Below are positions 16,686 through 61,926 of a stretch of 64,000 nt of DNA, in pieces. Source of the stretch: Paenibacillus silvisoli (GTDB taxonomy: Bacteria > Bacillota > Bacilli > Paenibacillales > Paenibacillaceae); the NCBI RefSeq assembly GCF_030866765.1, contig NZ_CP133017.1, positions 5,746,501-5,810,500 of the forward strand, given 5' to 3'. A program made the position numbers and the translations under genes. The notes beneath the pieces were generated by a model. The model worked only from the letters and a program-made list of their open reading frames with translations. It did no database searches and was not told the origin of the DNA. Each line of letters opens with the position of its first letter. The first letter of the stretch is position 1.

Positions 16686-17603
16686 TTACATCAGCCCCTC
16701 CTGTCCCATGCGTTTGACCAAATAGTTGGCGATGACGAGCAGCGCCAGGCTGATGACCGATTTGAACAATCCGACCGCGGTGATGATGCCGAAGCCGAGA
16801 TTGACTCTGCCGGAGAACGACAACCGGTACATGAACGTATCCAAAATATCCGCAACGTTATAGACCGCAGGGCTGTACATGTTGAAAATTTGATCGAAGC
16901 CGCCGTTCATAATGCCGCTGACGGCCAGGATGAGCATCATCGCGACGATGCCGTTGATGGACGGCCATGTAATGTGAAGCATCTGCTTCCACCGGTTGGC
17001 CCCGTCCATATAAGCCGCTTCGTACAGCTCCGGGCTGATTCCGGCAATCGCGGCCAAGTAAATGATGGCGCCCCAGCCGGCTTCTTTCCAGATGTTCGAT
17101 GTATACAGCAAGCCCCGGAACGTATCCGAATCCGACAGCAGGCTAAGCTCTCCGAAGCCGAGATGCGTGAAAACGAGCTGAACCGCGCCGGTGTTGCCGA
17201 GAATGTTGACCAGGATGCCGCCGAGCACGACCCACGAGAGGAAGTGCGGGAAGGTGAACACCGTTTGGTACAGCTTCTTGAGCTTGGAGCCGGCAATTTC
17301 GTTCAGCAGCAGCGCAACGATAATGGCCATCGGGAATTCAATGAGAAGCCGGCCGATGCTGATGACGATCGTATTGCGGAAGGCCGTCCAAAAATCCGAA
17401 TACCTGAAAATGTAGTGGAAGTTGTCCAGCCCGACCCACGGGCTGCCCAATATCCCTTTATTGAACATAAACTTCTTGAACGAGAGCGTGACGCCGTACA
17501 TCGGGATGTAGGCAAAGACCAGATAATAGACGACGATCGGCAGCAAGAGCAGGTAAAACATCCTGTACTGCACGATGCGCTTCCATAGCAGTGAACCTTT
17601 CAT
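16686..17603 (-). CDS. Carbohydrate ABC permease (LplB type)
   Basis: About 305 residues beginning MKGSLLWKRIVQYRMFYLLL. ATGs at 17618 and 17612 are in frame, but GGAG lies about 8 bp before the ATG at 17603, so I prefer it. Motifs typical of LplB proteins are PMYGVTLSFKKF and the EAA loop YEAAYMDGANRWKQMLHITW. Six spans are predicted. It is the first gene of a three-gene importer operon, downstream of a cre-like promoter. The kinase/regulator pair upstream is its likely controller. Confidence 0.93.
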   Translation of the reverse strand: MKGSLLWKRIVQYRMFYLLLLPIVVYYLVFAYIPMYGVTLSFKKFMFNKGILGSPWVGLDNFHYIFRYSDFWTAFRNTIVISIGRLLIEFPMAIIVALLLNEIAGSKLKKLYQTVFTFPHFLSWVVLGGILVNILGNTGAVQLVFTHLGFGELSLLSDSDTFRGLLYTSNIWKEAGWGAIIYLAAIAGISPELYEAAYMDGANRWKQMLHITWPSINGIVAMMLILAVSGIMNGGFDQIFNMYSPAVYNVADILDTFMYRLSFSGRVNLGFGIITAVGLFKSVISLALLVIANYLVKRMGQEGLM

Positions 17604-17659
17604 CGGTACCATCTCCATTTTTTGCAGATGTCTTGTTGGCGCTCGGTTGATATAGACCT

Positions 17660-17824: not shown

Positions 17825-17852
17825 GAAAAAAAGGCGGCCGGGACCGCCTTTG
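17825..17852 (-). terminator. Terminator of the kinase/regulator operon
   Basis: A GC-rich hairpin (GGCGG / CCGCC with a 6-nt loop) is followed on the minus strand by seven T residues, a classic intrinsic terminator. It lies 238 bp beyond the regulator stop codon, so the palindromic module at 17891-18075 would be transcribed as part of that operon's 3' untranslated region. Confidence 0.8.
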
Positions 17853-17890: not shown

Positions 17891-18075
17891 CTAACGAACT
17901 CCAGCAGCCTTATTTGCCCGAAATCGCGCCTTCTAGGATTCTAACGAATCTCAGAAGCGCTATTTGGCTCAAAACCGCGCCTTTTGCCCGCTTTTCGGTC
18001 AAATAACGCTTCTACGATTCGTTAGAGCTGCAAAACGGCTATTTTCGGCCAAATAAGCTCTCTAGGATTCGTTAG
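17891..18075. repeat. Four-site mirror repeat module A (AAYYYY class)
   Basis: 185 bp of noncoding DNA with four copies of a 26-bp half-site CTAACGAA-(10)-(C/T)TATTTG. Sites 1 and 2 start at 17891 and 17941 in plus orientation. Sites 3 and 4 are inverted and end at 18025 and 18075. The step is 50 bp on both sides and the whole is symmetric about 17983. It begins 15 bp beyond the stop codon of the AraC-type regulator gene and could fold as a long imperfect hairpin in RNA. Four related modules occur in this window. No open reading frame is supported here. Confidence 0.9.
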
Positions 18076-18089
18076 CGCGCCGCGCCAAT

Positions 18090-19520
18090 TCAAGCGCCCG
18101 TCCGATACTCCCGCGGCGTTTTGCCGACGATTTTCTTGAAGATTTTGCTGAAATAGTACGCATCGTGATAGCCGACCCGCTCCCCGACGCGGTGGATCGG
18201 CAAATTGCTGTTCTTGAGCAGCTCGCACGCATGGCGAACGCGCAGCTCGGCCAGGTAGTCCGTAAACGACTGGCTCACATGCTTAATGAACAATTGGCTA
18301 ATGTAGTTGCGGTTCATATAGAACTCGTCGGCCAGCATCTGCAGCGAGACGTTCTGGTGATAGTTGGTGTTCACGTAATCGATGACGGCGGCGAACGAGT
18401 CGCTGCGCAATTGGCCTTCGCGGTACATGCCGCCCAGATACGCGCCGGACATCCGCTTCAAATCCTGAATGAGCTCCGCCGCATCCTGATAACGCTCAAG
18501 GAGGCGCTCGTAATCGACCAGCAAATATTTGGACAAGCCGTCCGACTCGCTGTTTTGCGATTGAATGATGGTCGTCATCACGGTGTTATATAAGAAGAAG
18601 GCATGCTTAATCTGATACGCGCCTGTCCGAAACCACTCGATGTATTGGTCATATAAAGCGGTCAGCTCGGACATATCATGCTTCTGAAGAGCGGAGGATA
18701 GCTGCTTGAAATCGGCGAAGCCTTTGCTCGCGCCGCTCTGATATACGACAGGACGGCCGGCGATAAAATATTGAAATGCCGCCATCTCCGCATCCTCGAT
18801 CGCTTCCCTTAGCGCCGACAGCTCGTGGAACAAGCCGCCGAGCCCGATCCCCCGGTACGCGCTGCCGCCAAAGCCGCCGGCCCGCTCGCTCAAATGTTCG
18901 AACAGCGGGGCCTGCCCGCTCTCCTGCACGATATAGACGCTCTTGCCGTTGCCGCTGCTCAGCCTTAAACAGCGGTACGGCTGCAGCATCGCGCCGATCT
19001 GCTCCGCATCCAGGCTGACGACGACGCGCAGGCCGCCCGCCGGCTCCAAGCCGGCATTGCCGAGCAGCTTGGCGACGCGCTCGCGCCCCTCCGGCTTGTC
19101 GTCCATGATCCATTCCATGACGGACGGCGTATCCTTGGCCGACCGGTCATCGAGCTTATCCTTCGCCTTCTTCAGCAGCGGAACGATCTCTTCCTCCTCG
19201 ATCGGCTTCAGGCAGTAGCCGAGCGCGCCGAGGTTCATGCATTTTTGCACGTACGAGAACTCGGCAAAGCCGCTGACGACGATAAACAGCGTATCCAGCT
19301 GCATTTCGTTGCATTTCTTGATCAGCTCGAGGCCGCTGATTTCCGGCATCCGAATATCGACGAACGCCACGTCCGGATTCAGCTCCTTCATGAGCTGGAG
19401 CGCTTTCGGACTGTTCGTTTCCGTACCGACAACCGTAAACCCGAAACGGGCCCAGTCGACGGAATCGAGTAAATTTTTGACAACCCACTGCTCATCATCG
19501 ACGATCATGGCTCTATACAT
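18090..19520 (-). CDS. AraC-type response regulator (YesN-like)
   Basis: 476 residues. An N-terminal receiver domain (1-120) has acidic residues in MIVDDEQ, phosphoacceptor Asp55 in VAFVDIRMPEISG, and a conserved Lys in YCLKPIEEEE. A divergent middle region (about 130-370) precedes two AraC helix-turn-helix motifs (about 375-476) ending RVGYHDAYYFSKIFKKIVGK and TPREYR. It is a cytoplasmic DNA-binding activator, phosphorylated by the adjacent kinase, whose 3' end it overlaps by 8 bp. The likely target is the LplB-type importer operon next door. Confidence 0.93.
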   Translation of the reverse strand: MYRAMIVDDEQWVVKNLLDSVDWARFGFTVVGTETNSPKALQLMKELNPDVAFVDIRMPEISGLELIKKCNEMQLDTLFIVVSGFAEFSYVQKCMNLGALGYCLKPIEEEEIVPLLKKAKDKLDDRSAKDTPSVMEWIMDDKPEGRERVAKLLGNAGLEPAGGLRVVVSLDAEQIGAMLQPYRCLRLSSGNGKSVYIVQESGQAPLFEHLSERAGGFGGSAYRGIGLGGLFHELSALREAIEDAEMAAFQYFIAGRPVVYQSGASKGFADFKQLSSALQKHDMSELTALYDQYIEWFRTGAYQIKHAFFLYNTVMTTIIQSQNSESDGLSKYLLVDYERLLERYQDAAELIQDLKRMSGAYLGGMYREGQLRSDSFAAVIDYVNTNYHQNVSLQMLADEFYMNRNYISQLFIKHVSQSFTDYLAELRVRHACELLKNSNLPIHRVGERVGYHDAYYFSKIFKKIVGKTPREYRTGA

Positions 19521-28898: not shown

Positions 28899-29084
28899 CT
28901 AACGGTTGCCACAGCCGCTATTCAGCCTCAAAAGGCCCATTTTGGAATGCTAACGGTTGCCACGAACGCTATTTGCCGATTTGGACATCAAAATGTTCCG
29001 ATTTGGGTCAAATAGACTCTGCGGCAACCGTTAGATTTTTAGATGGGCTGTTTTTGCGGAAATAAGCGCTATGGCAACCGTTAG
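28899..29084. repeat. Four-site mirror repeat module D (GTTGCC class)
   Basis: 186 bp noncoding element with four half-sites CTAACGGTTGCC-(6-8)-CTATTTG or close variants. Sites 1 and 2 begin at 28899 and 28950. The inverted sites 3 and 4 end at 29034 and 29084. Its right end lies 9 bp from the stop of the PhyH-type gene, so it would form that operon's 3' untranslated region. The order, spacing and length match the module at 17.9 kb, though the six bases after CTAACG differ. Confidence 0.9.
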
Positions 29085-33111: not shown

Positions 33112-33296
33112 CTAACGGTTGCTGCAGCGCTTATTTGCGCTAAAAAGGCCCTTTTTGAAATCTAACGGTTGCCACAGAGGCTATTTGGCCCAAATCGGAA
33201 CAATTCGCAGATCCAATCGGCAAATAGCGTCACAGACAACCGTTGCAATTTCAAAAGGGCCATTTACGGCGAAATAGCCGCCGTGGCAACCGTTAG
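33112..33296. repeat. Four-site mirror repeat module E (GTTGCC class)
   Basis: 185 bp element with half-sites starting at 33112 and 33162 and inverted half-sites ending at 33245 and 33296. Three carry CTAACGGTTGC; site 3 has lost one T (CAACGGTTG). It sits 21 bp after the stop of the VOC remnant and 25 bp before the stop of the convergent acetyltransferase gene. A partial extra CTAACGG precedes site 1 (about 33104). Confidence 0.9.
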
Positions 33297-61447: not shown

Positions 61448-61632
61448 CTAACGAACCGTATAACGCTTATTTGCTCGAATTTGCCTCATTTGCAATTCTA
61501 ACGAACTCAAGCGACCTTATTTCGTCCGAAACAGCCGATTTCAGGCGTGGACGGCTGCAATAACGCTTCTGGAGTTCGTTAGCCGCCAGAAACGAGCTTT
61601 TCAGCCCAAATAAGCGCTATTGGGTTCGTTAG
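61448..61632. repeat. Four-site mirror repeat module B (AAYYYY class)
   Basis: 185 bp, half-sites CTAACGAAC... starting at 61448 and 61498, inverted ones ending at 61582 and 61632; symmetric about 61540. It is the first of two tandem copies 294 bp apart. It lies in a gene-free stretch between the minisatellite and the partial gene at the window end. Confidence 0.92.
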
Positions 61633-61741: not shown

Positions 61742-61926
61742 CTAACGAATCGTATAACGCTTATTTGCTCGAATAAGCCTCGTTTGCAATTCTAACGAAC
61801 TCCAGCGACCTTTTTCCGTCCGAAACAGCCAATTTCAGGCGCGGAGAGCCGAAATAACGCTTCTGGAGTTCGTTAGCCGCCAGAAACGAGCTTTTCAGCC
61901 CAAATAAGCGCTATTGGATTCGTTAG
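61742..61926. repeat. Four-site mirror repeat module C (AAYYYY class)
   Basis: 185 bp, second tandem copy of module B (half-sites starting 61742 and 61792, inverted ones ending 61876 and 61926). The two copies look closely similar over the module and share flanking words such as CCGCTCCCCCTTCTGA and AGCCGCAGGCT. The 294-bp step indicates a recent duplication of module plus flank. Confidence 0.92.

Follow-up and report, generated by a model that had tools for sequence, protein, structure and literature searches.

What is the four-site mirror element that stands at positions 17891–18075 of the stretch analysed here, a window of 64,000 nucleotides (contig positions 5746501–5810500 of a 6.73-Mb single-contig genome)? 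This element, module A, consists of four 26-bp sites of the form CTAACGAA-N12-TATTTG, set at steps of 50, 77 and 50 bp. The outer and inner left sites (17891–17916 and, 50 bp further on, 17941–17966) lie on the plus strand with their CTAACGAA heads at 17891 and 17941, and the inner and outer right sites (18000–18025 and 18050–18075) lie on the minus strand with their heads at 18018–18025 and 18068–18075, the midpoint of both pairs being 17983. The mirror and its common centre, described earlier in a sequence-only reading, are thus real. The stop codon of a gene for a response regulator with an AraC-type helix-turn-helix (18090–19520, minus strand) is 14 bp from module A, while on the far side from this gene we read a terminator-like hairpin with a T-run from the sequence (17826–17851, minus strand), followed by the adjoining gene on the left, which encodes an ABC-transporter permease domain protein (16686–17618, minus strand). 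Module A therefore seems to lie between the regulator stop codon and the terminator, i.e. inside the transcript. The same reading had listed four further modules with this geometry. It indeed recurs, at 28899–29084 (186 bp), at 33112–33296 (185 bp) and in a tandem pair at 61448–61632 and 61742–61926, but the modules at 28.9 and 33.1 kb carry another head, CTAACGGTTGCC; the five modules of the window thus represent two dialects, dialect 1 (CTAACGAA, module A and the tandem pair) and dialect 2 (CTAACGGTTGCC). Exact CTAACGAA occurs 12 times in the window, four times in each of three modules, whereas 100 shuffled windows contained 1.61 on average and 6 at most.

More than 100 intergenic copies of the module are present in the genome of this soil bacterium. 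The stretches fetched from it contain at least 61 full CTAACGAA modules, and the second dialect contributes about 70 modules of the same geometry. Genome-wide, the dialect 1 two-site 50-bp pattern gave 66 forward and 68 reverse matches with up to two mismatches (1 and 4 for its reversed control), and CTAACGGTTGCC site pairs gave 72 and 69 with up to three mismatches (0 and 0 for the control), so that neither the copies nor the 50-bp spacing were confined to the five modules first noticed. Among the 245 exact CTAACGAA sites in the 566 kb of fetched stretches, the only spacings seen three times or more were 50 bp for two plus-strand or two minus-strand sites, and 77, 126–127 and 176–177 bp for plus–minus combinations. 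Of the 61 full modules, 52 show exactly 50/77/50, and the other nine are one base off at one step. A scan of the fetched stretches for mirrors with any 8-base head returned 70, comprising 68 of the two dialects and two other repeats, whereas either of two wrong spacing sets returned none. These counts bear out the selection on spacing that had been proposed from the window. In addition, the 53 modules with four perfect TAACG were 47 pure dialect 1 and six pure dialect 2, with no mixed module, and sites are missing from five further dialect 1 copies that we inspected. We also considered an uptake sequence and rejected it, since lone sites are scarce: 220 of the 245 exact CTAACGAA fall inside the 61 full modules, in stretches picked around modules, and some of the remaining ones belong to truncated copies.

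The placement of the modules was analyzed with codon-scored gene calls. We tried 68 modules (61 full, five truncated and two of dialect 2), and none of the 66 with two called neighbours was located between divergent genes, whereas 27 of the 139 intergenic gaps of at least 150 bp in the same stretches were divergent (p 1e-6). Likewise, none of 30 dialect 2 modules, two of which are common to both sets, had a divergent placement. When genes were picked crudely as the longest ORFs, 14 of 99 placements in this genome and 27 of 132 at loci of other genomes came out as divergent; we trust the codon-scored calls over these counts, which are the only ones for other genomes. Along the contig, dialect 1 is sparse at about 2 to 4.5 Mb (7 of 61 modules). 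Across the order, at least one exact TAACGAA two-site match was found in 113 of 392 sampled genomes, some of them as single hits that are possibly due to chance, and in 24 of 49 genera; the holders listed include Paenibacillus, Cohnella and Saccharibacillus species. One genome, G385, has 60 forward and 73 reverse CTAACGAA-type pairs, and the other sampled members of genus g2 have 0 or 1 per strand. Other arrangements were also encountered. In L140 and L141 (G281 and G313), TAACGAA recurs every 50–52 bp in head-to-tail tandem arrays, unlike the mirror modules, and a third repeat type of the present genome has back-to-back heads, e.g. TAACGGACATNNATGTCCGTTA, at 50-bp steps in a geometry unlike that of the modules (17 matches, L441–L457, e.g. 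at contig 2587580–2587747 and 3842135–3842206).

Does the module act as RNA or as duplex DNA? One role suggested earlier was a structured 3′ untranslated RNA, in which site 1 pairs with site 4 and site 2 with site 3 in the transcript. Each strand of module A has a better fold than its shuffled versions (z -6.9 and -8.3), and the terminator comes after this module; such good folding is what any mirror repeat would give. We thus compared the complementarity of variable columns within and between modules (52 modules, 300 shuffles). The compensatory-change test proposed for this role ran in the opposite direction: the outer variable part was Watson–Crick complementary in 46.5% of cases within a module versus 53.5% between modules (z -2.9), and the module centre in 34.3% versus 39.1% (z -3.1), whereas the nearly invariant inner heads and inner TATTTG columns paired slightly better within modules (z 2.2 and 2.5). 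A polarity of the modules, the left and right outer sites tending to differ, may contribute to the deficit, and so may selection against long perfect palindromes. Furthermore, Rfam gave no match at gathering score in the window. At 90 facing gene 3′ ends, a terminator-like hairpin preceded the dialect 1 module in 48 cases and followed it in 22, nine of which had hairpins on both sides, and 29 ends had neither; about half of the modules' gene sides are thus cut off from the transcript. Taken with the free alternation of A and T in the linker columns, described next, these results indicate that the module is not a structured RNA, and we regard a role in the 3′ untranslated region as very improbable.

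The A/T content per column follows a 10.0-bp period across all 185 bp (power 4.24 at 10.0, 2.59 at 10.25 and 0.29 at 10.5). This period survives masking of the heads and TATTT boxes, was reached by none of 10,000 column permutations, has a consistent phase between single modules (R 0.989, n = 52) and is also present, more weakly, in 117 exact modules of other genomes. Several linker columns contain A and T about equally often and G or C rarely, such as column 92, with 26 T, 25 A and 1 G in this genome. Such alternation would look like selection for groove-phased bendability, rather than for base reading or pairing, and the period itself is as expected of bent, wrapped duplex DNA. Since the 50-bp step corresponds to five turns of 10.0 bp, the heads would lie on one face of the DNA.

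We then investigated the genes that accompany the modules, by clustering 1343 ORFs from module-bearing loci and ranking the clusters by the number of members lying no more than 400 bp from a module. The largest cluster, a mixed one that includes the AraC-type regulator beside module A, had 13 of its 53 members near a module, and all eight members of the second, from eight loci of which two are assemblies of one species, adjoined modules. The product of this second cluster is a protein of about 220 amino acids, in which a winged helix accompanies a domain predicted to be a Vsr/EDxHD-like nuclease; we found five relatives in this genome. Gene 1, associated with dialect 1, lies some 210 kb outside the window (contig 6020376–6021023, minus strand), and its stop codon is followed by two CTAACGAA modules in tandem. 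Upstream of gene 2 (contig 1702087–1702719, 58% identical) lies a dialect 2 module, in agreement with the prediction made beforehand that a paralog would be found beside a dialect 2 module; the two closest paralogs of this genome thus adjoin modules of different dialects. Genes 3 to 5 have no 50/77/50 module alongside, which we count against the explanation preferred below. Two weak module-scan matches near gene 4 turned out to be another kind of repeat. Short dyad repeats of the TGAGAGCACGAAAT / TGAGCGCACGATTTCGTGCGCTCA type were seen beside gene 4 (L289:1050–1370) and again in L084 (contig 4349337), so other paralogs may have repeats of their own.

The partner family comprises at least 1004 database proteins and is present in 294 of 392 genomes of the order (E 1e-5 or better). 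We assembled 90 gene loci, 30 returned by the search and 60 picked from the listing, which make up a high-scoring, non-random set. A head-blind scan detected a four-site mirror within 900 bp of the gene at 53 of the 90 loci versus one of 700 shuffled flanks, downstream of the gene at 48 and upstream at 8. The other 37 loci have no mirror, at least two of them with little flank left, and this also weighs against our explanation. The gene-side scan yielded additional heads, including CTAACGGAC, TAACGGAAC, CTTGCGGAC and CTAACGATCAC.

The 120 listed relatives of the protein are mostly named 'transcriptional regulator' or hypothetical. Sequence searches against PADLOC, NCBIfam and PDB gave only weak matches, mostly to winged helices, Pfam gave none over its cut-off, and Foldseek with the whole predicted model gave none at E 0.001 or better, with winged-helix chains on top and a weak match to TnsA (1t0f) in the list. 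The match of residues 22–135 to a nuclease fold came from VIA-align, in a list dominated by residues 137–206. In the predicted structure, the catalytic domain has the fold of EDxHD/Vsr enzymes, and the winged helix resembles that of MarR. Among 68 sequences, the candidate catalytic residues E48, E74 and H81 are invariant, and D60 and D84 nearly so. Residues 22–135 are predicted to form a Vsr/EDxHD-like nuclease domain. The partner gene is preceded by a conserved 5′ leader, in which GGTYGTGAAGCACACGCCGC is followed by a terminator-like hairpin (contig 6021115–6021130, minus strand; L286, L291–L380). The leader motif occurs in 56 of the 90 gene loci, against 1.85% of 2000 background windows, and the pairs of the hairpin vary across 50 distinct leaders; it may be an attenuator RNA or encode a tiny leader peptide (GTG AAG CAC ACG CCG CTT TGA). 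Rfam gave no match on loci L286–L290. At contig 4519121 (L391), the leader immediately precedes a dialect 2 module and the partner gene is missing from between the two, which looks like gene loss.

The heads and the proteins were found to correspond at a single residue. When the seventh base of the head is G, one position of the winged helix is Arg or Lys (33 of 33 loci), and when it is A, the same position is Gln, Ala, Pro, Thr, Val or Asn (25 of 25 loci). CTAACG-A or CTAACG-G was therefore concordant with a non-R/K or R/K residue at all 58 loci, with 56 distinct proteins (Fisher 5.7e-17), although these loci are related and hence not independent, a point held against the preferred explanation. 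The match was first spotted by eye, with heads and proteins side by side; in a ranking of 213 alignment columns over 53 loci, the same column was the best and the sole perfect one (leave-one-out 0.98, next column 0.91). It corresponds to residue 174 of P0001, located where helix 173–185 begins in the predicted model. Arg–G and Gln–A are classic protein–DNA contacts. The tree of the loci contains three head switches and three residue switches; the independent switch pairs, a single concordant one when only supported branches are used and three when all branches are, do not suffice for significance. Since TAACGGA modules would be expected elsewhere in genomes with a G-type module beside the gene, we also counted TAACGGA two-site matches in 28 G-type genomes (27 from the 33 G-type loci and one typed separately), 16 of the 20 A-type genomes and 20 gene-less genomes, and five or more on both strands together were found in 18, 5 and 0 of them, respectively. 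The 10 missed G-type genomes and the five scoring A-type genomes argue against the explanation. In several of the G-type misses, the gene-side heads are spelled otherwise than TAACGGA, and in the only A-type positive inspected, this genome, the TAACGGA matches belong to the third kind of repeat. With a candidate protein now named through gene linkage and the head–residue match, the proposal that the module is a multimeric protein-binding site gains support.

To describe how the modules are inherited, we compared related genomes. A listing matched by eye placed 23 of the 25 modules of G266 also in the close genome G125, and 20 of these pairs were fetched and confirmed, with 0.94–1.00 identity in the modules and 98% in the flanks. 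The changes amounted to 4/560 in heads, 8/400 in TATT boxes and 58/2700 in linkers (heads versus linkers p 0.025; heads plus boxes p 0.10). The heads are thus probably under purifying selection in place, a result toward which choosing the pairs by head match in both genomes is biased. The TATT box was no more conserved than the linkers, which does not favour our explanation. Modules at matching positions in this genome and P. lignilyticus have heads in common but not linkers: in two full pairs of equal length, linker identity was 0.43 (random 0.47, sd 0.066) and head identity was 0.94 and 0.97. A further pair, in which a module is truncated, scored 0.32, and two pairs of unequal length were left unscored. 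These genomes are too distant to tell inheritance from replacement. The closer pair D2_2/GM2 gave 0.88 for linkers and 1.00 for heads. One intergenic place holds a dialect 2 module here (L071, about 2376–2560) and a dialect 1 module in P. lignilyticus (L213:4577–4761). In genus g3, at least two forward pairs were present in 19 of 25 genomes with the partner gene (median 17) and in 20 of 43 without it (median 0; Mann–Whitney 3e-4). The modules clearly outlive the partner gene, and the site pairs of the 20 gene-less genomes are another count against the preferred explanation.

Traces of past copying were observed as tandem pairs, a repeat of about 480 bp and shared flanks in some dialect 2 copies. 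The ~480-bp repeat, with an internal module and a terminator-like hairpin at its end, is about 95% identical between four loci (L174, L175 and L183 of P. alginolyticus and L125 of G192), on which Rfam gave no match. Flanks beyond the heads are common to the dialect 2 modules L069, L071, L111, L257, L265, L272, L280, L283 and L285, some of which also share an upstream terminator; this pattern looks like the copying of longer segments. In this genome, two loci (L066:3289–4862 and L109:734–2305) each carry, close to a module, a 1.57-kb insertion-like segment that is 99.7% identical between them. Target-site duplications showed no excess over shuffles at 61 dialect 1 and 31 dialect 2 modules, and the Y1 (IS200/IS605-type) transposase PF01797 had no match in this genome, whereas it was found in five of 14 control genomes. 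The non-autonomous mobile element once suggested for the module is possible in a REP-like sense, but neither the target duplication nor the Y1 transposase was found.

From the features computed directly, i.e. geometry, copies, gene–module linkage, head–residue match, phasing and head conservation, we consider it likely that the family of ~220-aa proteins with a Vsr/EDxHD-like nuclease and a winged helix has the module as its cognate four-site DNA target. Binding, assembly, cutting and copying are steps that we infer. The partner protein very probably binds the module directly: its winged helix would read the head, and the residue at the start of the recognition helix would tell CTAACG-A from CTAACG-G. 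Multimerization and wrapping are probable: four or more subunits would occupy the four heads, all on the same side of the duplex, and the linkers with their phased A/T content would bend round the multimer to form a wrapped, mirror-symmetric complex. More tentatively, at a little under even confidence, the nuclease may have driven the spread of the modules. The enzyme in the complex would cut at or near the module, recombination would copy the module elsewhere, and insertions away from promoters would survive. Strand cutting and recombinational copying would then belong to the past, with modules now mostly inherited vertically and lingering after loss of the partner gene, and a one-residue code of the Arg–G / Gln–A style could permit several dialects to coexist in one genome.

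The main rival is a host chromosome-architecture site, where the module wraps DNA at gene 3′ ends for the benefit of the cell. Its binding partner would be either a different wrapping protein or the same protein, whose nuclease domain would then be idle or serve regulation. The exact 10-bp phasing, the placement off divergent promoters (0 of 66 and 0 of 30), the heads kept in place between close genomes and the persistence of modules beyond the partner gene would all suit such a role. However, the strict head–residue match and the gene linkage indicate one dedicated protein, the catalytic-looking residues are retained, and architecture alone hardly accounts for two dialects within one genome. 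We judge it unlikely, and the host role and the nuclease platform may both hold. An ordinary MITE that depends on an unseen DDE transposase and offers it two sites at each end would explain why two direct sites in each half and inverted halves resemble transposon ends, and why the ~480-bp repeat of the P. alginolyticus type, with its internal module, occurs in copies about 95% identical. Nevertheless, target duplication was found at neither the 61 nor the 31 modules, the linked gene belongs to the nuclease–winged helix family and does not encode a DDE enzyme, and most G266 modules (23 of 25 matched by eye, 20 checked) are common to a close genome; this reading appears improbable. Equally doubtful is an operator array of a transcription regulator. 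The prevailing database name of the 120 listed relatives and the MarR-like winged helix would agree with it, whereas the modules stand at 3′ ends off divergent promoters and, beside the gene, mostly downstream (48 of 90 versus 8 of 90 upstream), and a regulator name leaves the nuclease-like domain unaccounted for.

Among dispersed bacterial repeats, the well-known pairing with a dedicated enzyme is REP/RAYT. In two accounts (PMC2817692, PMC3116915), RAYTs are Y1 transposases and REPs are palindromes with kept complementarity; like the modules, REP/REPIN elements are dispersed intergenic inverted repeats with tandem clusters and a dedicated gene with adjoining repeats, and several repeat classes per genome are each tied to their own gene copy. 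In contrast, the modules have four sites at fixed 50/77/50 steps, 10-bp phasing and no covariation, and the partner is a Vsr/EDxHD-like nuclease with a winged helix in a genome with no Y1 gene. A dedicated gene flanked by repeats is found here by analogy, at 53 of 90 loci and mostly on one side. Since both the Y1 transposase and the kept complementarity are missing, the module system is not a member of REP/REPIN–RAYT; in our best reading, it would be REP/RAYT-like in logic and built from unrelated parts, a gene with adjoining modules and tens of dispersed 3′-end copies. Compared with Vsr/EDxHD nucleases such as the homing endonuclease I-Bth0305I (PMC3943268, PMC11879112), the partner protein shares their predicted fold and conserved acidic residues and histidine, and carries a winged helix where phage EDxHD enzymes have modular DNA-binding regions, while its putative target is a four-site array instead of one long target. 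Unlike the gene of I-Bth0305I, the partner gene is a neighbour of its presumed target and is not located within it.

BIMEs of E. coli bind gyrase and IHF. Also mentioned in PMC2817692, they resemble the modules as composite mirror elements at gene 3′ ends. The module sequence and spacing differ from theirs. TnsA combines a nuclease fold with a winged helix, and Tn7/Mu-type ends carry several protein sites in fixed orientation; the predicted partner and the multiple oriented sites recall both, whereas the target duplication was not found at the modules. Like bcr1 and other MITEs (named in PMC3733652), the modules are short dispersed non-coding elements, but they differ in their four internal sites and linked nuclease-like gene, and by the test of target duplication they are not MITEs. 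The module was not described in the open-licence literature searched, including the available parts of PMC2817692, PMC3116915, PMC3943268, PMC11879112, PMC12306157, PMC3733652 and PMC3012674. We know of no repeat–enzyme pair with this DNA architecture or with this enzyme. Whether the system forms an undescribed bacterial repeat–nuclease class with a free-standing enzyme, combining a four-site wrapping assembly, module copying and co-evolution with dialects through a one-residue code, is for us a possibility just short of an even call.

The module system would appear to be a second, independent solution, after REP/RAYT, to joining a repeat with its own enzyme, this time in Gram-positive spore-formers, and it would differ in relying on another nuclease fold and on wrapped duplex DNA where REP/RAYT has hairpins. 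Repeat–enzyme co-evolution becomes directly testable through the fixed 50-bp geometry, the coexisting dialects and the one-residue match. The reasons for the persistence of such systems, and a possible bacterial use of phased, bendable DNA at the ends of genes, also become approachable, and a role is suggested for the partner family, with its 1004 or more database proteins.
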